The position numbers and the translations under genes were made by a program. The notes beneath the pieces were generated by a model, which made no database searches, was not told the DNA's origin, and worked only from the letters and a program-made list of their open reading frames with translations. A DNA stretch of 36,204 nt from a virus: positions 1 to 36,204 of IMG/VR virus record IMGVR_UViG_3300033153_005640. The stretch is one strand, 5' to 3'. This document shows positions 5,202 through 26,406 of the stretch, piece after piece (the stretch's first letter is position 1; every line of letters starts with the position of its first letter).

Positions 5202-6929
5202 ATGGCGAATGAATTTGACTTGTCAGACCCCTTTGCAATGAGTAATCCTAGGAGGTCCGGACTACATTCCAGCCCCTACGATTTACACAGTCAGCTATAC
5301 ACTCCTCGTAGATTAAAAGAACTGTTCAAATGGTGTGAATTTCTCTTCTATAACAGTCCTCAAATCTACGCCGCACTCCGTAAATTCGGAGAATATCCTA
5401 TAACGGATTTTACTTATGAGACGTCAAATAGTTCTCTTAAGAAAAAATATAAGAATCTACTGGAAACCACACTGAGAGCTCGGGAACTCTTAGTTGAAAT
5501 GACTATGGACAAGTACGTATATGGAAATGCCTTTATCTCTATGTACCAACCCTTCCTACGGTATTTGAAATGTCCTAAGTGCAACTCCCTGACAAACATC
5601 AAAAATCTATCGTATGAATACTCCTATGACAAATTACAGTTTCGGTATACGTGCCCTAACTGTAAAAAGTCTGTAGTGGCGGGCGAGAAAGAGGTGGAAG
5701 ACCGCAAGCTCGCAATTAGCAGAGGGATTAATTTTATTCGATGGGATCCTAAGCTCATGGATATCGACCACAATCCTATTACAGCTCAGTCCATCTACTA
5801 TTACACTATTCCTCCTGAATTAACTACTCGCGTACAGCATGGACACCGTAGTTTGATTGACACGCTACCCTTGAGTTTCTTAAAGACCATAAAAGAGAAG
5901 AAGCACTTTAAGTTTGCACCCCAAGCCATCCGACATCTAAAAGTAGGTGGGCCTGCAGGGGTTAGTCCTCAGTGGGGCCTTCCTCCTACACTCCCAGCTC
6001 TCCCCATGTTCCATTTTGTAGCCGCGCTACGTAAAGCTAACGAGGCAATTGCCTTAGATTACATGGTACCGTTACGTGTCGTACACCCCGGACGCGGTGC
6101 TAGTCCGATGGATCCAGTTACATCTATTAGCCTGGAGAACTGGAAGGACAATATGAAAGCGAGTTTTGGAGAGTGGCGGAAGGACCCTCTTCATATAATG
6201 TTCGCACCCATTCCAGTTGAAACTGCGCAAATAGGCGGACAGGGTCGTGCCTTATTGACCTTGGGCGAAGTACAGGAAGCTGAAAAAGGAATGATCTCTT
6301 CCCTGGGAGTACCTATTGAATTCATCTACGGAGGTTTAACGGGCAAAGGGATGGAAGCTACATTGCGTCTCATCGAGAACCAGCTACAGACACACATTGC
6401 AGACCTAAAAGATCTACTCCAGTGGGTTGCCGATAGCTGTGCCAAGTTCTTAGGCTGGCCTAAAATAAAAACTGGGATGACACCTTTCCGTATTACTGAT
6501 GACTATATGCAAAAGCAGATCATTATGCAGATGTATATGCAGGGTATTCAAACTGGCGACCAGACTATTTCTGATACTACTATTACCGAGTTGAATAACA
6601 TCGACTTGGACAAAGAACGGGAACGTATTAAACAGGAAGCATTGGATAAAGTACGAGCACAGCAGGAGCTGGAGCTGGAAATTAAGAAGATCCAGAATAA
6701 CATGGCACAGCAGATTCAAATGGCCGCACAGGAAGGAACTGTTTCGTATGACCAACAACAGATTATCGGTCAAGCTGATCAGATTGTAGCACAGTTAATG
6801 ACTCTTGACGCCGGAATGCGTAAGAGTCATCTGGATGCATTACAGGTTGAAGACTACATCTTATACTCGGTCGTAATTCAACGAATGGAACAACAGGAAC
6901 AAACTCTGCAAGGTCAAGGAGGCTACTAA
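5202..6929 (+). CDS. Portal protein with zinc-ribbon insert
   Basis: The 575-residue protein has the look of a phage portal, the dodecameric ring at the head vertex through which DNA is packaged and ejected. Support: size, position as the first gene of the structural arm, the VYGNAFISMY segment typical of portal N-terminal regions, a stem-like portion (GVPIEFIYGGLTGKGMEATLRLIE) and a long Gln/Glu-rich C-terminal coiled coil from about residue 460. A four-Cys zinc ribbon (C124, C127, C151, C154) is inserted in the N-terminal half. The ATG has an AAAGGAG site. Assignment rests on pattern rather than a single diagnostic motif; another head-vertex protein is the main alternative. Confidence 0.75.
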   Translation: MANEFDLSDPFAMSNPRRSGLHSSPYDLHSQLYTPRRLKELFKWCEFLFYNSPQIYAALRKFGEYPITDFTYETSNSSLKKKYKNLLETTLRARELLVEMTMDKYVYGNAFISMYQPFLRYLKCPKCNSLTNIKNLSYEYSYDKLQFRYTCPNCKKSVVAGEKEVEDRKLAISRGINFIRWDPKLMDIDHNPITAQSIYYYTIPPELTTRVQHGHRSLIDTLPLSFLKTIKEKKHFKFAPQAIRHLKVGGPAGVSPQWGLPPTLPALPMFHFVAALRKANEAIALDYMVPLRVVHPGRGASPMDPVTSISLENWKDNMKASFGEWRKDPLHIMFAPIPVETAQIGGQGRALLTLGEVQEAEKGMISSLGVPIEFIYGGLTGKGMEATLRLIENQLQTHIADLKDLLQWVADSCAKFLGWPKIKTGMTPFRITDDYMQKQIIMQMYMQGIQTGDQTISDTTITELNNIDLDKERERIKQEALDKVRAQQELELEIKKIQNNMAQQIQMAAQEGTVSYDQQQIIGQADQIVAQLMTLDAGMRKSHLDALQVEDYILYSVVIQRMEQQEQTLQGQGGY

Positions 6930-7440: not shown

Positions 7441-7563
7441 TACAGCCATATGAGCCACGGGATAATCCTTGCGATAGTGATTAACATTCAGTTCCTTTCA
7501 GTTAGATGTTTCACTATATTCTTATACCAAATTAGTCTATACTTTTGACACTTGGAGGATCTG
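7415..7563 (+). promoter_or_regulatory. Leader region upstream of the RNA polymerase gene
   Basis: This 149-bp gap is the longest gene-free stretch in the window. After the terminator it is AT-rich, and TATACTTTTGACACTT lies at 7538-7553, just before a GGAGG ribosome site (7554-7558). The same 16-base pattern, with changes, occurs at 17315-17330 and 18853-18868 in two other long gaps (11 of 16 positions identical in all three). It could be a -10-like element or a promoter for the phage polymerase. I see no matching -35 box here. Confidence 0.35.
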
Positions 7564-10500
7564 ATGGCTGAACTAATTCCCATGATGACGGACCCGGGTC
7601 AACGACGTAAAATGATTAAACAAAAGATCTTGGACGGGCTTGCGGAATCTTTCCCTATGCAGTCACGTAACAAGACTATTGAGCTTGCTGACCTGCAATA
7701 TCAGGAGAAGGACTATAGTTCGAGCGAACAGAAGAAAGCAATCCTTGAGGGGAGCTCCTTAAATGAAACAGTAAAAGGCACTGTAATAGTCCGAGACAAA
7801 GAAGGGAAAGTTATCGACAAGGCGAAGAACTTCGTACTGGCGCGAGTTCCTTATTTCACCCCGCGACATACTTTTATTCTCGAAGGGAATGAGTATTCAG
7901 TTTCAAATATGATCCGGCGTAAGCCCGGAGTTTACGCACGTAAAAGAGCCAATGGAATTCTAGAGGCCTCGTTCAATACGCACGGAGGTAAGAACTTTCG
8001 TATAAGTATGGATCCTTCTAAAGGTGAACCTCAGTTAGAATACGGCGCTACTAAAATCCCTTTATATCCAATCCTTAGACGTACCGGTATGTCTCATGAT
8101 CGTATTGCACAGTCATGGGGTCATAAGCTCACAGACGCAAACCAGAAAAATCTCTACCATAAAGCGGATCAAGCGGTAGATAAGCTGTACAAGAAAGTAC
8201 TACCTGAATATCGAAGAGACAGCGCTCACACCCCCGCAGATCAGATGGATGAGGTTGTCAAAGACTATACCCGCGCTGCGATGGATCCCGACGTGAATGT
8301 ACAGACACTAGGTAAGGGCTATAAAAATGTTACGCCGGATAGCCTATTAGATGCCTCTTCTAAAATACTTCGGATCTTTAAAGATACCGATGAAGTAGAT
8401 GACCAGGATAACCTTGATTTCAAATACATGGTTTCAGTGGACGATTTATTCAAAGAACGTATCAAGTTGGACGCACGGGACATTGCAAAGAAACTCACGA
8501 TAAAGATGGAAGCTACCCCCGAGGTAAAAAAGGTATTACCTGCAGGTCCTTTCTCTAAGGGCTTACGTACATTTATAAACACGTCACAGTTGGCATCTAT
8601 CCCTACACAAACAAATCCTATGGAGCTTATTGATTCGGCTGTACGAGTAACATCCTTGGGCGAAGGGGGTATCTCCACGGAACGAGCAGTACCTATTGAA
8701 GCCCGACAGACTCACGTAACTCAAATTGGAGCGTTAGATCCCATCCGAACCCCTGAATCTTTTAGGGCCGGTATCGATATTCGAGCAGCTATGCTGGCAC
8801 AGAGAGACGCCAAAGGGAATATTTATGTTCCTATTTACGACGTAAAGACTAATAGGCGTAAGCACATACGCGCGGGAAAGCTCCAGACAGCGGTAGTTGC
8901 ATTCCCTAACCAGAAGCTAAGAGGGACCGTTGACGCAGTAGTAAACGGCGTAAACCGTAGAGTCCACGCGTCGAAGGTTGACTACCAGATACCTCATGCC
9001 TCGTTCATGTACAGCCCTACTACAAACTTAATTCCTTTCTTGGAATCAGCTCAGGGTAATCGTGCAGTTATGGGTTCCAAGATGCAGGTACAAGCACTGT
9101 CTCTGGTAGACAGAGAGGAGCCTTACATTCAGGTGAAGGCGCCCGGGAATGCTTCTTATGAGCAGCTGATGGGCCACATCATTAATCCCGTCTCGCCGGT
9201 GGCGGGGACGGTCGCAAAGATTGATAAGGATTATATTTACATACAACCTGAAGCTACGAAGGTCGGAGCGGCTACGCTAAAGAGAGATGCGAAATACGTA
9301 AAGGTTCCTTATGATACCGATTTCCCTTTAGCCGCTAAGACTTATTTGAATCACAAACTTGGAGTAAAAGTTGGAGACCGTGTTAAGCCTCAACAGCTTT
9401 TGGCGGATTCAAACTTTACACGTAACGGCACCTTAGCTCTTGGCAAAAACATGCGAGTAGCGTTCATGCCTTACTACGGCGCGAATTCAAACGACGCTGT
9501 AGTTGTAAGCGAAGGTGCCTCGAAAAAACTAACATCGGAACGTATGTACAAGGTGGTTATCCCCCGTGATGCGGATCTTACATTCAAGAAAACGAAGCAT
9601 CAGTCCTATTACGGGCACGGCTACACTAAAGACCAATACAAACCTTTGGATGACGAGGGTGTTCCTACGCCAGGATCTAAGATACTACCAGGTAATCCGG
9701 TCGTGGTAGGTTTACGTAAGACACAACTATCCGCTGATGACATGATTTTAGGTAAACTTCATAGATCCCTGGTACGTCCGTACAGTGAGTATACTAAAGT
9801 CTGGGACCATGACCATACTGGAGAAGTTGTAGACGTCGTTAAGACTCCCAAACGCATAGCCCTTACGATTAAGACGCGGGAGCCGGCGGGCATAGGTGAC
9901 AAACTATGTTACACTGAAGACACTGAAGTTCTTACTACTGAAGGGTGGGTGCCTGTCGCGGAGGTAGGTCCTCGTACAGTTTGTTATACGTTGAAATCTT
10001 CCGGAGCTATAGAGCTGCAGCTACCTACAGGGCTGTACTACTACCCTCAAGCAGGTGAATTATATGAACTAGATTCTCAACAGGTTAAATTACGTGTTAC
10101 ACCTAATCATGACCTGTACGTAAAGCCTCGGGGCGCCTCTAAGTACCAGCTCAAACCCGCACGGGAAACAATACATAAGCGTGTCAGGCATAAGAAGAAC
10201 GGTAAATGGCTGTCAACAACTCCTGAGGTTGTCACGCTCCCTCCGGTGTTACGGAAGACCAGCGGGCGTATAGCTAAAGTGCTTCAACCTATTCCAACCC
10301 TAAATTGGTGTAAGTTTCTAGGTACCTATTTAGCCAATGGAAGTTTTATAATTCATACTCGTAAGGATAGGAATCAGAGTATAGAATATCGTACTCAAAT
10401 TCATACAGTTAAAGGGCAAAAACATAGTGTCTCCGGTGATCAGTATACGTGGATACAGCAGATCATCTCAGAGTGTAACTTTAAAGGACAGCCTCGAAAG

Positions 10501-12999
10501 GATCGCCACAATATTTCGTCGCGTCAGTTGACAGAGTACGTAGCGCAGTTCGGACACGCACAGGATAAATTTGTACCGCCGGAGATTTTTACCTGGGGCG
10601 CCGATGCAGCTCAAGCAATACTCGAAGGTTTAATAGGGTGTGATGGCCATGCTACCGAAAGTGGTAGTTTAGGATATACTACTACTTCCAAACAGTTAGC
10701 TGACGATGTTCAACGTCTTGCCTTGCACGCGGGTTACGCCGCTAACATTAAAAAAACAATTCCGGATAACCCGAACTGGAGTGCCCGGTACACGGTAGGA
10801 ATTGTAAAGCACAAGTTGACTCCTCAAATTAACCACGGACACGCCCAAACTCAGAACGGACAAACTGAGAGGATTATTGAGTCTATAGAACCGGTATGGG
10901 GTATCACTGTTCCAAACCATGTCTTATACGTTCGTGTAAAAGGGGTACCTGTTTGGTCAGGTAATTCAGGTAGATACGGAAACAAGGGAGTTATCTCCAG
11001 GATTATTCCCGACGGCCAAATGATTCAAGACGAGAGAGGTCGTCCTGTAGATATTTTGATGACGTCTGCAGGAGTAGTATCCCGTATTAATCCTAGTCAA
11101 ATCTTAGAGACGGCCATAGGTAAGGTGGTAGAGAAAACAGGGAAGCCTATTTTGGTTGAGAATTTTGCCAGAAAGGACAATACTGCGTGGGCTAAAAAGC
11201 TGTTGAAGGAGCACGGAATTAAAGATAAGGAAACTGTATTTGACCCTGTTTCGGGTAAGAAAATTCCCAAGGTATTCGTAGGTAACCAGTACATCATGAA
11301 ACTCTTTAAATCTACCGATACTAACTACAGTGCCCGAGGAGTACCTGATAGCTATGACCTCAATCAGCAACCTACTAAGGGAGGGGTACATAGCGCCAAG
11401 GTACTTGGTAAAATGGAGTTTGACGCTCTGGTAGGTCATAATGCTCGGAACATTCTGAAAGACGCAGCTACGATTAAGAGTCAAAAGAACGACGAATACT
11501 GGAGAGCTATTCAGTTAGGCTACCCCACACCTCCGCCACGTACCAGTTTCGCATATAATAAATTTTTGAATATGCTTACAGGTGCAGGCATAAAGATAAA
11601 TCGGGATAAGAACCTCGTATCACTAGCACCTCTTACTGACGAGGATGTATTAGCACAGTCTTCAGGTGAAGTGAAAGACTCTAAGATCGTACAGGCTAAG
11701 AATTTGAAGCCCGAGATTGGAGGTCTCTTCGACCCTGCGATTACTGGAGGTTTGAAGGGCGAAAAGTGGAGCCACATCGCATTAGCAGAACCTGTGATAA
11801 GCCCCGTCTTTATAGATCCGGTTAGACGACTCCTGGGTTTAACCACGAATCAGTTGAATACAGAGTTGAAAGAAAAGGGTGGGGCGCATATTCAACGACG
11901 GTTAAAACGTATTAACGTTGCGGAGATGGAAAAGGAACTCTTAGGTCAGATGCGCCGCAAAAAAGGAACACCCCTGGACTCCGACGTCAAGAAGGTTAAG
12001 TACTTACGCGCACTTAAATCCAGGGGGCTGACTCCGGATAAAGCGTACATCGTATCTAAGATACCTGTAACTCCTCCGGTTACACGTCCTGTTCTACCTA
12101 TGCAGGGGAGCCAGCAGATCATATACGGCGATGCGAATCCTCTGTATCAGGATTTAATTTACATCAACAATCAGCTCAAAGACGTTAAGAAAAATAAAAT
12201 ACTGATAGGAGAAGAAGAGAAGCTACGGCCTGTACTCCAGGAGGCAGTAGGTGCGGTGTACGGAACCAATGATCCAGTAACTGCGAAATCCCAGGCCCGA
12301 GGACATAAAGGATTTTTGACATACCTGGCCGGAAAAGGGAGCCCTAAGTTCGGGTACTTCCAGTCTAAAATAATGAAACGTACCCAGGACGTTGCAGGTC
12401 GAGGTACGATTGTTCCAGACAGCACTCTGGGGATTGATGAAGTAGGTCTTCCAGAAGATATGCTGTGGTCTATGTACGATAAATTTGTCATCCGGCGACT
12501 GGTTCAGACGGGGCAGCCAGCACTCCAGGCAAAAAAGATGGTTAAGGATCGCCACCCGGGAGCGCGAAGTCATCTGATGCGCGAGATACAGGAACGTCCG
12601 GTACTCATCAATCGTGCTCCTACACTACACCGTTACAACATTTTAGCGTCTACCCCTAAACCAATACCCGGGCATACGATTAGGATTAATCCCTTTATAG
12701 AGAAAGCCCAAAATGCCGACTACGACGGTGATACTATGATGGTACACGTTCCTGTCAGCCCAGCGGCGGTGGAAGAATCTAAAAACCTAATGCTTTCAAA
12801 CATCCTTTTTAGTGATAAGTCTAAGGGAGATCTCTTAGTCTTCCCCCAACATGAAGCTATCATGGGCATCAACCATGCGGCGTCCTTAGACCTTAAGAAC
12901 AAGCCAAAGGTATTTAAGAATAAAGCTGAAGCGATGTCGGCGTATAATTCAGGTAAGATTGGATTAGGTACGCGCGTAGATATAAAGGAGGTGTTATGA
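7564..12999 (+). CDS. RNA polymerase beta subunit fused to N-terminal beta-prime, with intein
   Basis: This 1811-residue protein is a multisubunit RNA polymerase chain: nearly all of beta followed by the first part of beta-prime. Beta landmarks in order: GNEYSVSNMIRRKPGVYARK (about 106-125), LDPIRTPES (about 390), NRAVMGSKMQVQAL (about 499), KNMRVAFMPY (about 627), GDKL then, after the intein, SGRYGNKGVIS, and the C-terminal MEFDAL region (about 1284). Beta-prime begins near residue 1350 (LVSLAPL), with KPEIGGLFDP, INRAPTLHRYNIL (about 1682) and the Mg-binding loop NADYDGD (1717-1723; Asp 1719, 1721, 1723). The usual N-terminal beta-prime zinc ribbon is absent. The chain ends shortly after the active-site loop; the rest is encoded at 14934. 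Start: ATG 7564 after GGAGG; an upstream TTG is less likely. Without the intein the product is 1458 residues. Confidence 0.93.
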   Translation: MAELIPMMTDPGQRRKMIKQKILDGLAESFPMQSRNKTIELADLQYQEKDYSSSEQKKAILEGSSLNETVKGTVIVRDKEGKVIDKAKNFVLARVPYFTPRHTFILEGNEYSVSNMIRRKPGVYARKRANGILEASFNTHGGKNFRISMDPSKGEPQLEYGATKIPLYPILRRTGMSHDRIAQSWGHKLTDANQKNLYHKADQAVDKLYKKVLPEYRRDSAHTPADQMDEVVKDYTRAAMDPDVNVQTLGKGYKNVTPDSLLDASSKILRIFKDTDEVDDQDNLDFKYMVSVDDLFKERIKLDARDIAKKLTIKMEATPEVKKVLPAGPFSKGLRTFINTSQLASIPTQTNPMELIDSAVRVTSLGEGGISTERAVPIEARQTHVTQIGALDPIRTPESFRAGIDIRAAMLAQRDAKGNIYVPIYDVKTNRRKHIRAGKLQTAVVAFPNQKLRGTVDAVVNGVNRRVHASKVDYQIPHASFMYSPTTNLIPFLESAQGNRAVMGSKMQVQALSLVDREEPYIQVKAPGNASYEQLMGHIINPVSPVAGTVAKIDKDYIYIQPEATKVGAATLKRDAKYVKVPYDTDFPLAAKTYLNHKLGVKVGDRVKPQQLLADSNFTRNGTLALGKNMRVAFMPYYGANSNDAVVVSEGASKKLTSERMYKVVIPRDADLTFKKTKHQSYYGHGYTKDQYKPLDDEGVPTPGSKILPGNPVVVGLRKTQLSADDMILGKLHRSLVRPYSEYTKVWDHDHTGEVVDVVKTPKRIALTIKTREPAGIGDKLCYTEDTEVLTTEGWVPVAEVGPRTVCYTLKSSGAIELQLPTGLYYYPQAGELYELDSQQVKLRVTPNHDLYVKPRGASKYQLKPARETIHKRVRHKKNGKWLSTTPEVVTLPPVLRKTSGRIAKVLQPIPTLNWCKFLGTYLANGSFIIHTRKDRNQSIEYRTQIHTVKGQKHSVSGDQYTWIQQIISECNFKGQPRKDRHNISSRQLTEYVAQFGHAQDKFVPPEIFTWGADAAQAILEGLIGCDGHATESGSLGYTTTSKQLADDVQRLALHAGYAANIKKTIPDNPNWSARYTVGIVKHKLTPQINHGHAQTQNGQTERIIESIEPVWGITVPNHVLYVRVKGVPVWSGNSGRYGNKGVISRIIPDGQMIQDERGRPVDILMTSAGVVSRINPSQILETAIGKVVEKTGKPILVENFARKDNTAWAKKLLKEHGIKDKETVFDPVSGKKIPKVFVGNQYIMKLFKSTDTNYSARGVPDSYDLNQQPTKGGVHSAKVLGKMEFDALVGHNARNILKDAATIKSQKNDEYWRAIQLGYPTPPPRTSFAYNKFLNMLTGAGIKINRDKNLVSLAPLTDEDVLAQSSGEVKDSKIVQAKNLKPEIGGLFDPAITGGLKGEKWSHIALAEPVISPVFIDPVRRLLGLTTNQLNTELKEKGGAHIQRRLKRINVAEMEKELLGQMRRKKGTPLDSDVKKVKYLRALKSRGLTPDKAYIVSKIPVTPPVTRPVLPMQGSQQIIYGDANPLYQDLIYINNQLKDVKKNKILIGEEEKLRPVLQEAVGAVYGTNDPVTAKSQARGHKGFLTYLAGKGSPKFGYFQSKIMKRTQDVAGRGTIVPDSTLGIDEVGLPEDMLWSMYDKFVIRRLVQTGQPALQAKKMVKDRHPGARSHLMREIQERPVLINRAPTLHRYNILASTPKPIPGHTIRINPFIEKAQNADYDGDTMMVHVPVSPAAVEESKNLMLSNILFSDKSKGDLLVFPQHEAIMGINHAASLDLKNKPKVFKNKAEAMSAYNSGKIGLGTRVDIKEVL
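9907..10965 (+). other. Intein with LAGLIDADG endonuclease in the beta catalytic motif
   Basis: A 353-residue in-frame insertion (Cys782 to Asn1134) interrupts the universally conserved GDK-x-(A/S)GRxGNKG motif of beta, so that GDKL precedes and SGRYGNKG follows. Splicing blocks are visible: block A starts CYTEDTEVLT, block B has TPNH (the TxxH motif), block F is VWGITVPNHVLYV, and the end is VWSGN followed by Ser. The penultimate residue is Gly rather than the usual His. Two endonuclease motifs are present: LGTYLANGS (first acidic residue replaced by Asn) and LEGLIGCDGH (Asp kept), so cutting activity may be reduced. Polymerase should be inactive until splicing restores the two catalytic lysines' motif. 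Confidence 0.93.
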
Positions 13000-13382
13000 G
13001 AAAAGAAGCAAGTCAAATAGCCAACGAAGTTTTGGTCAAAGTAGCAGCTGAAGTAACCCCGGAATTTGAAGAAATGGTCCGCAATATAGAGGGGCAACAG
13101 GTTCAGGGGAGACATACCTTAGGAGGTATGGGACTAGGTAGTTTAGGGGGAGGCATACTCGGTAGTTTAATCGGAAAGGGTAGAGGTGTACCTGGTTTGG
13201 GACTTGCGGGAGTCTTAGCAGGAGCTACCCTCGGAGGTGCTGGCGGTGCGACAAGCGGACATTTTGCCGGTAAGCGTCATGCTGAAGGTATTACTCCCGA
13301 GCATATGCAGGATCAAGCACGGCAATTTTCAACGCTACCCCCTGAGATCTTGGAACAAGCCTTAGAACACTATCGCGGATAA
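12996..13382 (+). CDS. Glycine-zipper protein with KTA-type N-terminal helix, 128 aa
   Basis: The ATG overlaps the stop of the beta/beta-prime gene (ATGA) and has a near-perfect AAAGGAGGTG site inside that gene. Residues 1-17 (MRKEASQIANEVLVKVA) form an amphipathic helix that recurs in two other proteins of the window. Residues about 45-90 are a glycine-zipper stretch (GLGSLGGGILGSLIG, then GLAGVLAGATLGG), which usually inserts in or crosses membranes as a helical hairpin. The C-terminus is helical and charged. Its place inside the split polymerase cluster is striking. It may be a virion or ejection protein; no specific family is recognised. Confidence 0.75.
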   Translation: MRKEASQIANEVLVKVAAEVTPEFEEMVRNIEGQQVQGRHTLGGMGLGSLGGGILGSLIGKGRGVPGLGLAGVLAGATLGGAGGATSGHFAGKRHAEGITPEHMQDQARQFSTLPPEILEQALEHYRG

Positions 13383-13401: not shown

Positions 13402-14934
13402 ATGCCCTACCTCTCAAACGCACAACGTAAAGCTATCTGGGCACGGCGTAATGCTGCCGACAAAGAAGTTGTCATCGATAACGCTCAGACCAAACAGAAG
13501 CTTACCAAGGGCGACGTAGGGCAATACTATGGAGACCCTCGTATACGCGAAGAGCTTATTAAGGGCTTACGGAACCGAGACCTCCTGGCAGTTATGTCCC
13601 GTAATCCGGATAAGCATATCTTCAAACGATACGAAGCCAAAAATAAACCGCTTCGAGTACAGGGGGAAGACGACCTATCTCGTTTTGTAACTCGAAGGTA
13701 CACGGAGTTCCACCCTACCATCGGAAAGAAGACTAAAGAAATCTGGGTGGATATTGATTCAGGTAAAGACCTAACTACCGGTACACTTAAGCCTCTTACT
13801 CAGGAAGTATCTACTCTTGTAAAACGGATGCCGGAAGTAGCGAATACGAACATAGCCTTCTCAGGGGGTGATGGTTTTTATGTCCGAGGTCTTTTGAAGC
13901 GGACTCAAAGTACTGACCGTATGCGCTCACGACTCAAAGAAGAGCTAGCAGAACTCGTAAAGAAACACAAACACGTTACGATGTCACCGCCCGCTCCTGA
14001 TGAAGTTCGGTTAGATATTTCTACACTACACAACAAAGGTTCTATTCGAGCCCCTTACTCTCTGAACGCGGAGACAGGATTAGTATCGGTTCCAGTTACC
14101 TCGAAACAGCTACCTACTTTTAAGCCTACTCGAGATGCTCTCCCTGCGAATGTCATTAAGAATCTGAAATACTTCGCCCCGGGAATACCGAAGACTAAGG
14201 TGACACGGGAGATACCTACGCAGCAGGAACAAAGTCATTGGACTCTCGCCGTTCAGGAGCATAAGGCTCAACGTGCAGGCAAACATTGGGACGTTCGTCT
14301 TGTAGATCCTAACACCGGATATGCCCATTCCTGGGCGGTACCTAAAGCTAGGATGCCAGAGGAAAAAGCGTTACTGGCGATCCAGCAACCGACACACACA
14401 GCAGACTACGCCCTCAATTTTGGTTTAGGGGCTCCTAAGATTATTGGAAAAGGTTACGGGAAAGGCTCCGTAGAAATAAAACACAAGGAACCCGTAAAGG
14501 TGTTAAAATCTACCCCGGACTACGTTAAGTTCGAACGACTTGAAGATGGAGTCCCAAAGAACTATATGTTAATCAGGACTAAAGACACGTCCTGGATTAT
14601 GAAGAAGGGTTCGACTATGAAAAAAACAGCAAATCAAATAGCAGATGCGGTACTTTATAAGGTAGCGCTCCTACCGAAGAACCCCTCGAATAGGGTGTCA
14701 ACAAAACCTTCTTCTTTTGAGTTACAGGCTCCCCTAAATGCTCAGGATGAACAGGCTCCTGCAGGGCTTTTAGCCGGCGCTCTTAACGACATTGAGGTTC
14801 CTCCTAAACGAGAAGGTACTCATAATAATTCAAGTCGTGGGATCTCAGCGCGCTTGAATGCGCCTACTTCCTGGGGGGCGTCTACGTCACTTCCTTCTAA
14901 TACAAATAATTCACCTGTTTTAGGACAGTTCTAA
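13402..14934 (+). CDS. AEP-type primase domain fused to LigD-type 3'-phosphoesterase
   Basis: The 510-residue protein joins two nucleic-acid enzymes. Residues about 50-245 resemble archaeo-eukaryotic primase small subunits: metal motif WVDIDSG (D117, D119), a FSGGDGFYVRG loop (153-163) where the family usually has SGxxGxH (here Tyr in place of His), and D205 in VRLDIS followed by KGSIRAPYSLNAETGLVSV, a hallmark stretch. Residues about 276-402 match the 3'-phosphoesterase domain of bacterial LigD, with all expected catalytic residues: H287, H295, D297, R299, H332 and Y336, plus HSWAVPKARMP. The tail (403-510) starts with MKKTANQIADAVLYKVA, the helix seen at 12996, then is disordered. It may prime synthesis or repair DNA ends. 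It lies between the two beta-prime genes. Confidence 0.8.
   Translation: MPYLSNAQRKAIWARRNAADKEVVIDNAQTKQKLTKGDVGQYYGDPRIREELIKGLRNRDLLAVMSRNPDKHIFKRYEAKNKPLRVQGEDDLSRFVTRRYTEFHPTIGKKTKEIWVDIDSGKDLTTGTLKPLTQEVSTLVKRMPEVANTNIAFSGGDGFYVRGLLKRTQSTDRMRSRLKEELAELVKKHKHVTMSPPAPDEVRLDISTLHNKGSIRAPYSLNAETGLVSVPVTSKQLPTFKPTRDALPANVIKNLKYFAPGIPKTKVTREIPTQQEQSHWTLAVQEHKAQRAGKHWDVRLVDPNTGYAHSWAVPKARMPEEKALLAIQQPTHTADYALNFGLGAPKIIGKGYGKGSVEIKHKEPVKVLKSTPDYVKFERLEDGVPKNYMLIRTKDTSWIMKKGSTMKKTANQIADAVLYKVALLPKNPSNRVSTKPSSFELQAPLNAQDEQAPAGLLAGALNDIEVPPKREGTHNNSSRGISARLNAPTSWGASTSLPSNTNNSPVLGQF
14617..14667 (+). other. Internal copy of the KTA-type tag helix, possible second start
   Basis: Codons 406-422 of the AEP-phosphoesterase gene encode MKKTANQIADAVLYKVA, 11 of 17 residues identical to the N-terminus of the protein at 12996. 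Because the same motif begins other proteins, the ATG at 14617 could be a relic of a gene fusion or a second translation start producing a 105-residue tail protein. Only a weak AAGGG lies upstream, so I favour fusion. Confidence 0.4.
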
Positions 14935-16736
14935 TGGCAGACGGCGGAACTTTCGGACGCTACCTATTAAATGAATATTTACCTCGTAAATATCACATAG
15001 GTAGTAACGCAGATAAAAAAGACATCAATAAAAAGATGAACGTTTTCGCACAGAAGGATCCTAAAGAATACATTCGAGCTATCCCCAAACTAAAAAAGGT
15101 AGGAGATCATTTAGCCACTACTGAGGGTCTATCGGTAGGACTAGACGACATAACTCCTGACTACCCTCGACGTAATCCATTGATGCAGAAGTTTGTACGC
15201 CGGTTTGATACCTCTACAACGGACGCTCAACGTAGCCGCGTAGCAGAGCAAGCTCAAACTGCCTTCATAGGTATTGCTTTGGACCATCCAGGATCAATGA
15301 CACAACAAGTGAGCAGTGGCGCCCGGGGGAACACAGTACAGTACTCTAAAATAGTAGCAGGCCCTGCTAACGCACGTGACGCGCAAGGGAATACAGTTCC
15401 CTGGTTGATTCGTAATTCATATAGTGAGGGTTTAACCCCTGCGGATTATTGGGCGGCAGGAAATGAAGCTATCCTGGACACAATCAAAAGTACGGTTTCA
15501 GTGTCGGAACCTGGGGAACTTTCAAAGATACTTATCAACAATATGAGTGATATTATTGTTACAGATACGGATTGTGGGACTACCAACGGGATCGTAAAGT
15601 CGGTCAACAGTAGCAATATAATAGACAGGTACCTGGTACGGAAGACCGGACCCGTTAGTGCAGGTACTTTGATCACCCCCGACGTCCAAAATCGTCTCAT
15701 ACGTACACGTAAAGATAACATTATGGTACGGTCCCCTATGACATGTGAAGCTCCAGACGGTGTCTGTCAGAAATGCCAAGGACTGGATGAGAGAGGTAAC
15801 GCACAGGAATTCGGTACGAACGTAGGTATTCGTGCAGCTCAAGCGTTATCAGAACCTTTGATTCAGTTCGCCTTAAATGCGAAACACGGGGTGCGTACAG
15901 CTGAATCGGAACGTGCACAGCTACAAGGCATTTCTGGTTTTCGTCAAATTATTGAGTCACCAAAACAGTTCTTACACAAGGCGACTCTAGCGGAAGAAGA
16001 CGGTAAAGTTACCCAGGTAGCTTCAGCGCCCCAAGGCGGACACTACGTACACGTAGGTAAGACCAAACACTACATTAATCCTAACATCAAAGTACTCGTC
16101 AAAAAGGATTCCACGGTTGAACGCGGAGATCGTTTAGGTGAAGGTATCCCTAAACCGGATGAAATTGTGAAACATAAAGGTTTGGGTGCAGGACGTCTTT
16201 ACATGGTAGACCTTCTTAACAATCTCTATAAGACCCAAGGATATAACCTAGACCAGCGCCATTATGAGCTCTTAGCTAAAGGCGAACTCAACTACGCACG
16301 CATTTTACAGGACCCTAGTAATAAGTTCATCCCGGGAGATATAGTCGGATACAATACGTTACGCGCAGAGCTGGGAAAAGACACAAAGGAAGTTTCATTA
16401 CAGGACGGCTTGGGTGAAACCTTAGGTAAAAATTATCTTCATTTTTCTGCGGGCAGTAGGGTCACACCTTCAATGGTAAAGACTCTTGACAAAGCTGAGG
16501 TTAAAAATCTACACATCGCACCCCGCGCGCCAGAGATTGAATTCGTCATGAAGCCTGCAACCCGCGCACCTCTTTTACATCCTGATTGGATGGCACGCTT
16601 GGCACATAGGAATTTAAAAGCTACAATTCAACAGGCTGCGCATTTTGGAGATATTTCAAATCTCCACGGAACTCATCCGGTACCTGCGTACGTACACGGA
16701 GTTGACTTCGGCAAGGGTGAGAAGGGACGTTACTAA
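14934..16736 (+). CDS. RNA polymerase beta-prime subunit, C-terminal part
   Basis: This 600-residue protein continues beta-prime exactly where the gene at 7564 stops. FGRYLLNEYLP (7-17) and TTEGLSVGLDDI (62-73) match the region just after the active-site loop in bacterial RpoC. SGARGNTVQ (128-136) and YSEGL (163-167) follow. The second zinc site is complete: C214 (TDCGTT), C271, C278 and C281 (CEAPDGVCQKC). The trigger-loop region reads SEPLIQFALNAKHGV (306-320), keeping the catalytic His (H318, E. coli H936) but with Asn315 where E. coli has Arg933. The bridge-helix core is very divergent. The C-terminal clamp part (KGLGAGRLYMVDLLNNLYK) is recognisable. TAATG overlap with the preceding gene implies coupling. 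Confidence 0.92.
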   Translation: MADGGTFGRYLLNEYLPRKYHIGSNADKKDINKKMNVFAQKDPKEYIRAIPKLKKVGDHLATTEGLSVGLDDITPDYPRRNPLMQKFVRRFDTSTTDAQRSRVAEQAQTAFIGIALDHPGSMTQQVSSGARGNTVQYSKIVAGPANARDAQGNTVPWLIRNSYSEGLTPADYWAAGNEAILDTIKSTVSVSEPGELSKILINNMSDIIVTDTDCGTTNGIVKSVNSSNIIDRYLVRKTGPVSAGTLITPDVQNRLIRTRKDNIMVRSPMTCEAPDGVCQKCQGLDERGNAQEFGTNVGIRAAQALSEPLIQFALNAKHGVRTAESERAQLQGISGFRQIIESPKQFLHKATLAEEDGKVTQVASAPQGGHYVHVGKTKHYINPNIKVLVKKDSTVERGDRLGEGIPKPDEIVKHKGLGAGRLYMVDLLNNLYKTQGYNLDQRHYELLAKGELNYARILQDPSNKFIPGDIVGYNTLRAELGKDTKEVSLQDGLGETLGKNYLHFSAGSRVTPSMVKTLDKAEVKNLHIAPRAPEIEFVMKPATRAPLLHPDWMARLAHRNLKATIQQAAHFGDISNLHGTHPVPAYVHGVDFGKGEKGRY

Positions 16737-24071: not shown

Positions 24072-24343
24072 GAAAGACAGCGGCACATATTGTTGAAGAG
24101 ATTTTAGTAAAGTACGCGGAAAATCTCTCTCCGTACTCCACAAAAGAACCCCCTCCAGTACCGAAGGTGTTACCAAGCCACGCGGACCAATACCCTCAAG
24201 CACTAGACCCGCATATGCGTAGAGCGAAAGAAAAGAGAGGACCAGCACCAAACCCTCGAACTACTACTAAGCCTGTAACGCCGATGGATACACTTAAATT
24301 GAAGTTTGCGAGAGTAGGACTACTCAAAGGAATTCTCACTTGA
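24068..24343 (+). CDS. Proline-rich protein with KTA-type N-terminal helix, 91 aa
   Basis: The N-terminus MRKTAAHIVEEILVKYA matches the tag helix at 12996 and 14617. After it the protein is Pro/Lys/Arg-rich and probably disordered (KEPPPVPKVLPSH, EKRGPAPNPRTTTKP), ending in LLKGILT. It is translated from the first 19-bp repeat and its stop overlaps the next start (TTGA). The composition (short helix, then basic disordered tail) fits a small DNA-contacting internal protein. No family is recognised. Confidence 0.65.
   Translation: MRKTAAHIVEEILVKYAENLSPYSTKEPPPVPKVLPSHADQYPQALDPHMRRAKEKRGPAPNPRTTTKPVTPMDTLKLKFARVGLLKGILT
24321..24339 (+). repeat. 19-bp direct repeat carrying a ribosome site, copy 2
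   Basis: This is the second exact copy of the repeat at 24049-24067. It encodes the end of the 91-residue protein, supplies AAAGGA and lies directly before the TTG start of the prohead protease gene. The spacing from ribosome site to start codon is identical in both copies, which supports the TTG start. Confidence 0.9.
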
Positions 24344-26406
24344 AGAAGATCATACACCTGGATCCTTATTTTCCTACGGGAGAGCTTACGATACAGCCTG
24401 TAATGCTTTGGTCTAGAGGTAGGTCTTTTATTGAGCCTATTACAAAGCATGCCAGTGTGGGTGCGGATTTTTTCAAAACGATTCAACCTGTTCCAGGACA
24501 TTCCATCGTTTATGTTTTAGCTGTAAGCGCTTGGGAAGCGTACGCAGAAAACAAGAATGGGGACGGCTTCCCCGAATTTCCTTACATGGAATCTGCGAGT
24601 CCTCCGTGGATTGCGGCGGACGAAGTATTATCCCAGCACTATAAATCTTTTGAAACTTACGGATATAATTACAGACACCACGTAAACAAGGATCCAAAAA
24701 AAGCTGTAGGCAAAGTGATAAAGGCTTTTTGGAATCCCCCGATGCACCGTGTAGAGTTGCTTATCGACTTAGAAGACGCGAAGGCTCCTGATCTAGCAGA
24801 ACGAATTGCTTCAGGAGAATACCCTCCTGTTAGTATGGGTACTCGTGTCAAATATGACGTATGTAATATTTGCGGGAATCGCGCCCCTACTCGAGCGCAG
24901 TACTGCGACCATTTGAAATATCAGATGCGGGAGATACTTGCCGACGGTCGAAAGGTCTGTGCATTAAATCCGTCTCCTAAATTTTTTGATATCTCCTGGG
25001 TCTTTAAACCCGCTGATATCAACGCCTACATGATGAAAAAAGTTGCAGAACCTGTAGCGTACGATCTTCTTTCGGGCGCAGCTGCGGGTGAGTATATTGA
25101 TGAGATGGATGATTTAAAAATAGCATCTCATAAATTGGCGGTAATGGATAAGGTGGTTCAAGGGATTCCGGTGGACGCTAAGTCTGAGAATATTGATGAA
25201 ACCGAATTAGCTAATATGGTAAAGATGCGTACAGCCATTCTCACTGCCGGCGATAATACTCCAGACTTGCCTGACGATGTATTGAAAAGCTTATCAGGTT
25301 TCGGACTACCCAAAATACTATCTACGATGTTCTCAGGAGGTATGATGCTTAATACCCCTGAGTTTATGAAGGTCGTACTCTTTAAATCAAACCCTAAAAT
25401 GCAATTAGGAGACGACCTTTTGGATAAAAGTGTCTTAATGCAGCGTCCTATCTTAGAGCTATTCCAAGATCACCCTCAGCTATTGGAGCAGTTAGAGTGC
25501 GACGATCATTTAGGTCTCACCCCCGAGAATGTAGATATTAAGGTTGCGGAGTTACTGGATCCCTATTTTGAAAAACGCTCGGCCATTAGTGACTACCTTT
25601 CCCGTCGTTTTATACCTGACTCCTTTCGACCTATGACGTCTGGACGCGCTACACAACAGCTTTCGTTAACAGATCCTGCTACGGGTAGGTCTTACGGTAC
25701 GACTCGAGGCGCGGCTATTAACGCACACGACGAAATTGCGAAAAGAAATATTTATAAGATACTAGGAGGTACCGCGTTACTTGGGGGTGCTTATAAGGTA
25801 ATAGGAAGTGGTTTAACTCGTAGGGGTTTAGGTAAGATGAAGCCCTTGATGGGCCTTACACTAGGTGCTCTAGGCGTTTCACAGTGGCCGAATATGGGTA
25901 AACACTATATGACAGACCAAGGTATCCCCGTTCCTACGATGACAGAGCTTACTCCCAGTAAATACGCGTCAGGGTGGTCTATGCCTTTAATGGGAACGTT
26001 GGGCACTATGGCTCTTTTAGGACATGACTACACTTCTCGGCTGCAAAGGGGTGAGCCTGTAGGACACCCTGCGTTACCTTTATCTCGTCGTATTTTAGAT
26101 CGGCTCGGACAGACTGTACAGGACCATCCTTTGTTATCTGCCGCAGGAGGCACTCTTCTACTCCGTAAAGGACTACGCGGACGACCTGCACAATTTTTAA
26201 AACATAAAGCGGTACAGCCCGCTATGAATTACGGACGTGCAGCATACAAAGATGTACGCGGGTCATTGAAAGATTTCGTAGAAGGTGTGAAAATTTCTTC
26301 ATGGCTTGAAAAAGAATTACCACAACCCTCGGGAACAGTAATGCTCCCGGAAATTGATATAGACAGACTTGCAGAAAAAATTGGAGAGATAATTGTTGAG
26401 GGTTGA
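24340..26406 (+). CDS. Prohead protease fused to a long C-terminal region
   Basis: The N-terminal ~230 residues look like a caudovirus prohead protease, the serine enzyme that matures capsid proteins: ENKNGDGFPEF (70-80), H113/H114 in YRHHVNKDPKKAVGKV (the catalytic-His and Gly-x-Val context), and S165 in YPPVSMGTRV (the vSxG catalytic-Ser motif). A zinc-finger-like C175, C178, C189, H191 follows the serine. At 688 residues it is far longer than usual proteases; the C-terminal part has Gly-rich hydrophobic stretches (ILGGTALLGGAYKVIG, MGLTLGALGVSQWP, SAAGGTLLL) and a final amphipathic helix. Start is TTG 24340, matched to the repeat-borne ribosome site. The C-terminal part may be a scaffold or membrane region. 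Confidence 0.75.
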   Translation: MKKIIHLDPYFPTGELTIQPVMLWSRGRSFIEPITKHASVGADFFKTIQPVPGHSIVYVLAVSAWEAYAENKNGDGFPEFPYMESASPPWIAADEVLSQHYKSFETYGYNYRHHVNKDPKKAVGKVIKAFWNPPMHRVELLIDLEDAKAPDLAERIASGEYPPVSMGTRVKYDVCNICGNRAPTRAQYCDHLKYQMREILADGRKVCALNPSPKFFDISWVFKPADINAYMMKKVAEPVAYDLLSGAAAGEYIDEMDDLKIASHKLAVMDKVVQGIPVDAKSENIDETELANMVKMRTAILTAGDNTPDLPDDVLKSLSGFGLPKILSTMFSGGMMLNTPEFMKVVLFKSNPKMQLGDDLLDKSVLMQRPILELFQDHPQLLEQLECDDHLGLTPENVDIKVAELLDPYFEKRSAISDYLSRRFIPDSFRPMTSGRATQQLSLTDPATGRSYGTTRGAAINAHDEIAKRNIYKILGGTALLGGAYKVIGSGLTRRGLGKMKPLMGLTLGALGVSQWPNMGKHYMTDQGIPVPTMTELTPSKYASGWSMPLMGTLGTMALLGHDYTSRLQRGEPVGHPALPLSRRILDRLGQTVQDHPLLSAAGGTLLLRKGLRGRPAQFLKHKAVQPAMNYGRAAYKDVRGSLKDFVEGVKISSWLEKELPQPSGTVMLPEIDIDRLAEKIGEIIVEG

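Follow-up and report, generated by a model that had tools for sequence, protein, structure and literature searches.

What is a DNA end-processing enzyme doing inside the genes for a phage RNA polymerase? The question is raised by an open reading frame (ORF) in the virus record IMGVR_UViG_3300033153_005640 of IMG/VR, which was analyzed over its whole stretch of 36,204 nucleotides (referred to as the window). An initial annotation made from the sequence alone described its product as a primase-polymerase (AEP) core with a DxD motif fused to a complete 3'-phosphoesterase (PE) of the LigD type, without a ligase domain and encoded in a polymerase operon. LigD-type end processing is known from bacterial and archaeal non-homologous end joining (NHEJ), whereas we found no published account of the arrangement seen here.

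We find that the observation is correct: the protein combines the gap-filling and 3'-end-trimming parts of bacterial end-joining ligase D. The interpretation attached to it is supported in part, as domain identities, PE residues, the missing ligase domain and the linkage to a polymerase hold, whereas the nature of the operon, the proposed role in primer making and the removal of 3'-phosphates had to be revised. The gene lies between the two halves of a multisubunit RNA polymerase (RNAP) in a group of uncultured tailed phages, and related phages carry a trimming-plus-ligase version at the same spot, which suggests that these phages repair DNA ends in a way linked to their own RNAP.

Domain identity and predicted fold

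A failure to match the AEP or LigD phosphoesterase families had been named in advance as grounds for rejecting the assignment, and both were therefore searched by profile. Pfam matches LigD_Prim-Pol (PF21686) at residues 76-256 (E=1.4e-7, 31.8 bits against a cut-off of 27.4) and LigD_N (PF13298) at residues 285-359 (E=2.9e-6, 27.8 bits, just below its cut-off of 31.1). On its own the PE score is modest and the case is made by relatives: all 16 aligned orthologs match both families (best 5.5e-17 and 1.5e-8). A profile of the orthologs retrieves solved archaeal PE structures (3p4h, 2.1e-12) and the PolDom structures of Mycobacterium tuberculosis (Mtb) and Pseudomonas aeruginosa (2iru, 1.6e-4; 1.4e-6 with the AEP part alone). 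Structure prediction, likewise proposed beforehand as a check, agrees. An AlphaFold2 model built with 27 sequences gives 10-residue pLDDT means of 90-98 over most of AEP and 84-94 over PE, but low confidence for the last 105 residues. Foldseek ranks LigD PolDom and Prim-PolC structures first (Mtb PolDom, E 5e-12, target TM about 0.7) and an archaeal PE next (3p4h, target TM 0.82), while nothing of this two-domain kind appears among the BFVD matches.

The six residues that bind metal and phosphate in the PEs of P. aeruginosa (H42, H48, D50, R52, H84 and Y88) and Methanocella paludicola (PMC8656161, PMC4797286) correspond to H287, H295, D297, R299, H332 and Y336. They were numbered correctly in the initial annotation and are invariant in all aligned PEs, as are Q285 and S310. 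However, Glu82 of P. aeruginosa PE, reported as needed for 3'-phosphatase activity but not for ribonucleoside removal (PMC8656161), aligns with an invariant proline, P330. This does not bear on family membership, but it makes removal of 3'-phosphates the less secure half of the PE prediction, and since PE chemistry leaves a 3'-phosphate after ribonucleoside removal (PMC4797286), a second phosphatase might be needed.

In the AEP domain, alignment with Mtb PolDom places D137, D139 and D227 at D117, D119 and D205, invariant in 26 sequences and satisfying motifs I (hhhDhD) and III (hD), while Ser172 corresponds to the equally invariant S154 (residue roles from PMC8656161). His111, which reads the ribose 2'-OH, we place at the invariant H104, a reading based on the motif context ExH, and Arg244 falls at N222. 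The DxD core was thus described correctly, but motif II (sxH) is changed in this copy, with His178 replaced by Tyr160. Across the set, 14 sequences have Tyr and 12 have His at this position, and for the window protein this motif decides neither for nor against membership in the family. A chance or decayed ORF is ruled out by conservation, fold and selection, as dN/dS in close pairs with usable dS is 0.03-0.10 for AEP and 0.04-0.05 for PE.

Features of the window and of related contigs (contigs numbered L carry related loci; G001 and G002 are two large AEP-PE contigs of 173 and 179 kb)
Record	Position	Strand	Feature	Basis
Window	5202-6929		Portal-like protein	Our reading only; no PHROG match
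Window	7552-12999	+	RNAP beta fused to the N-terminal part of beta' (beta-beta'N), 1815 aa	PHROG RNAP beta matches
Window	9910-10965 (approximately)		Insertion of about 350 aa (residues about 787-1138), likely an intein	Present in L007, L009 and L013, missing in most relatives
Window	12996-13382	+	Extra 128-aa Gly-rich ORF beginning with the same tag peptide as the AEP-PE tail (MRKEASQIANEVLVKVA)	Absent in most relatives
Window	12996-13050		Tag peptide	
Window	13402-14934	+	AEP-PE protein, 510 aa	Start codon supported by the conserved N-terminus M-PYxSPAQRAAxWAxR in L002, L006, L017 and L023
Window	13465-14169	+	LigD-type AEP domain, residues about 22-256	PF21686; PDB profile alignment; model and Foldseek
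Window	14170-14610	+	LigD-type PE domain, residues about 257-403	PF13298; profile against 3p4h, 3p43 and 3n9b; invariant residues
Window	14617-14931	+	C-terminal tail, residues 406-510, with MKKTANQIADxVLxKVA and a conserved PL..D..PAGxLA part	dN/dS 0.05-0.06 in two pairs with usable dS
Window	14617-14670		Tag peptide	
Window	14934-16736	+	RNAP beta' C-terminal part (beta'C), 600 aa; its ATG overlaps the AEP-PE stop by one base	PF04998, 2.8e-16; PDB beta' chains, 1.2e-35
Window	24340-26406		Head maturation protease match	
G001	152968-154110	-	Reverse transcriptase	RVT_1, 7.8e-15
G002	87609-88799	+	Reverse transcriptase	RVT_1, 1.7e-18
L158	6286-9717		PE-LIG-AEP protein, 1143 aa	
L090	4974-9656		1560-aa ORF joining SNF2-type helicase, NUDIX, PE and ligase domains	
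L088	3999-9230		LigD-type AEP followed by a rubrerythrin-like domain at the end of a 1743-aa ORF	
L086	5538-12206		PE beside a GNAT acetyltransferase domain in a 2222-aa ORF	

A variable partner at a constant site

The polymerase next to the gene is a phage-type multisubunit RNAP with homologs in IMG/VR and in isolates. A first scan of viral contigs with the single AEP-PE sequence confirmed no relative, and the RNAP half proved to be the way in: a scan with beta'C gave 23 contigs, and one with the AEP-PE profile 46 loci. Thirty-one contigs carry AEP-PE after the first RNAP half, and beta'C follows wherever the contig reaches it. L126 and L127 have a divergent AEP-PE at the same locus. In the twelve loci measured, the gaps to the RNAP genes are mostly -11 to +3 bases, the exceptions being the window (402 bases upstream) and L007 (269 bases downstream). 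A split intein or intron does not explain the gap in beta', as by inspection the two RNAP ORFs have no intein-like ends and relatives have the same split with other genes between. Direct tblastn searches with the AEP-PE protein in isolated phages and plasmids, and with PE-LIG, the single AEP and the L088 PE in phages, found no relatives, nor did profile-derived patterns in GTDB genomes.

In the sister clade the same slot encodes PE fused to an ATP-dependent ligase with the KxDG motif (L077-L081, L083, L084), while L082, L112 and L119 have PE without AEP or ligase and L020-L022 have no PE in the slot. L005 keeps only a C-terminal remnant of PE and the tail, beside a helicase-like ORF. Among contigs in whose examined sequence no RNAP was found, L085 and L088 have AEP and PE in separate ORFs, L087, L089 and L090 have PE-LIG, and the virus-classed L158 has all three domains in one chain, interrupted, by our reading, by an intein in the PE metal-binding motif.

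On a tree of RNAP beta'C the architectures largely follow the phylogeny: AEP-PE-tail members group together, with L005, which lost the protein, and PE-LIG and PE-only members group apart, although some deep supports are low. On the PE tree, AEP-PE-tail, PE-LIG and PE-only members form one clade (support 0.94), so they are the same PE with different partners. PE is therefore the constant part, while the partner domain changes. The AEP of L126 and L127 joins that of the AEP-PE-tail members (0.97). Six bacterial LigD sequences, the only ones used, fall outside the phage PEs, but this rests on rooting with them. The ligase-domain tree and deep AEP branches are poorly supported, so the direction of domain exchange and the source organism are not settled. 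The tail is a separate small ORF upstream of beta'C in several PE-LIG and PE-only phages and thus appears fused to AEP-PE in this clade. As to an internal start giving a separate tail product, start codons often precede the tail but no consistent ribosome site was seen in a partial scan, so the matter is open.

A search for a ligase elsewhere in the genome had been suggested from the outset. G001 and G002, which are collinear over many ORFs, have no match to PF01068 or PF01653 and no ligase like that of the sister clade, and the phage ligase profile finds none in the window either; RNA-ligase families were not included. Ku (PF02735) was not found in any record searched, including PE-LIG contigs of up to 198 kb. 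A DnaG-type CHC2 primase match is present in nine of twelve large records of all architectures (one below the curated cut-off), and G002, which has none by profile, encodes a collinear ortholog of the G001 protein at 28% identity.

A possible link between end repair and transcription

The explanation we favor, although with no more than even confidence, is that the gene encodes a phage DNA end-processing enzyme made of the polymerase and phosphoesterase modules of archaeo-prokaryotic end joining. Our computations establish the two domains and their predicted folds, the conserved catalytic residues, purifying selection, the constant place between two RNAP half-genes and the ligase that replaces AEP as the partner of the same PE in the sister clade. 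The mechanism, in contrast, is inferred: AEP would fill short gaps or recessed 3' ends with ribonucleotides, PE would trim excess 3' ribonucleotides or displaced product, and a host ligase would seal the nick. This fits with archaeo-prokaryotic NHEJ, where Pol fills gaps with ribonucleotides and may displace strands, and with M. paludicola, in which a separate PE trims the products of Pol so that ligation works (PMC4797286). The invariant equivalent of the ribose-sensing His111 is in agreement, and that PE is kept while its partner changes suggests 3'-end trimming to be the core need. In this view, overlap with the beta' gene implies that the enzyme is made in step with the phage RNAP, and it may ride with it, possibly in the virion, so that incoming or transcribed phage DNA is mended where the polymerase meets gaps and nicks.

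Some observations weigh against this model. Without Ku or a ligase in G001 and G002, the sealing step must come from the host or a missed enzyme. Neither ribonucleotide addition nor 3' trimming was assayed, polymerase activity is not assured given Tyr160, and without the Glu82 equivalent 3'-phosphate ends may be left after trimming. Gene placement does not prove physical contact with RNAP, and virion packaging is not shown for this lineage; particle association is suggested only by phage YerA41, whose RNAP is a distant match and in whose particles RNAP subunits and a DNA ligase were found (PMC7354516). The protein is also dispensable to some members, as the loss in L005 and the absence of PE from the slot in L020-L022 indicate. 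A bolder version, which we regard as tentative and rather unlikely, is a phage RNAP that carries its own DNA end-repair module: LigD-derived enzymes made in step with, and perhaps bound to, a split multisubunit RNAP, varying by lineage (AEP-PE, PE-ligase, PE alone) and possibly packaged and injected with the polymerase to mend the genome at the start of infection. Modules of LigD recombined, without Ku, at a fixed site inside phage RNAP genes would show that these parts have a viral life of their own and would offer a simple test of whether transcription and DNA end repair are physically linked in a virus.

Alternative readings appear less likely. The enzyme might be the end-preparing half of a Ku-independent system that rejoins broken phage genomes, with ligase and end-bridging supplied by the host or by unrecognized phage proteins. 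The LigD modules, the PE-ligase fusion of sister phages at the same place and the full LigD-like chain of L158 are in line with this idea, which we nevertheless consider improbable in view of the missing Ku and, in G001 and G002, the missing ligase. More doubtful still is a main role in replication, with AEP laying RNA primers, one of the roles proposed initially, or PE removing RNA from 3' ends made by the phage RNAP or primase. LigD Pol domains can prime (PMC8656161) and motif III resembles the replicative primase small subunit, but with the separately encoded DnaG-type candidates AEP is not the only primase, and it was not found in the PE-LIG, PE-only, L005 and L020 contigs.

Similarly weak is the case for counter-defense, in which 3'-blocked or gapped phage DNA produced by host defense nucleases would be repaired. 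Lineage-specific changes of partner domains, including AEP, LIG, and GNAT or NUDIX-helicase fusions, look like adaptation to different threats, yet no defense target is known and a constant position inside RNAP is unusual for accessory anti-defense genes. It is equally doubtful that the gap in beta' is merely a tolerant cargo site without a link to RNAP. Salmonella phage Arash, Vibrio phage D69 and L005 do carry other genes in the gap, and small Gly-rich ORFs are inserted in some members, but AEP-PE is kept through its clade, tightly packed against both RNAP ORFs and under strong purifying selection.

Relation to known systems

Among the closest known systems are the split NHEJ enzymes of M. 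paludicola (PDB 5DMU, 5DMP), where LigD-type Pol and PE work as a pair but are encoded, with Lig, as separate co-operonic genes. In the phage protein Pol and PE are fused, no ligase or Ku partner was found, and the gene is in an RNAP operon. LigD of M. tuberculosis and P. aeruginosa shares the two domain families, the folds and the PE catalytic residues, from which the window protein differs by the absence of a LIG domain and Ku, the motif II change from His to Tyr and the Pro at the Glu82 position. The mycobacterial Prim-PolC/LigC gap-repair complex (PMC5663958) has a stand-alone LigD-like Pol that fills short gaps with ribonucleotides outside NHEJ, but it is cellular and lacks a PE fusion.

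On the RNAP side, the multisubunit-RNAP-encoding Caudovirales (mReC; PMC7481178) and the isolates D69 and Arash have beta and beta' of a phage type, and the isolates share the beta-beta'N fusion with a separate beta'C. The position of the window inside the published mReC tree was not examined, nor were the capsid (PF07068/VOG11186) and terminase (VOG01069) families searched. D69 and Arash have no AEP-PE in the gap and no LigD-type AEP, and carry an ATP-dependent ligase elsewhere. The main text of the mReC paper does not mention ligase, primase or LigD, and literature searches, confined to open-access papers and thus no proof of absence, found no report of LigD Pol-PE fusions in phages or of LigD modules inside RNAP genes, in agreement with the initial annotation. 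While the parts are known, the fusion in phages, the constant site inside a split RNAP and the change of partner domain appear to be new.

The large AEP-PE contigs hold further features. Both G001 and G002 encode a sigma-70-like factor, a RuvC match and ParB-like proteins, with an IS605 OrfB/TnpB-type match in G001 and a class II ribonucleotide reductase and a uracil-DNA glycosylase in G002. Their reverse transcriptases share a RYADDL motif, are 43% identical and lie in collinear positions next to a partner ORF of unknown family. Finally, the short peptide M[KR]KTAxxIAxxVLxKVA recurs at starts or inside unrelated ORFs of these phages (the window, L005, L007, G001 and G002), sometimes twice in one ORF, and may be a sorting or packaging tag.
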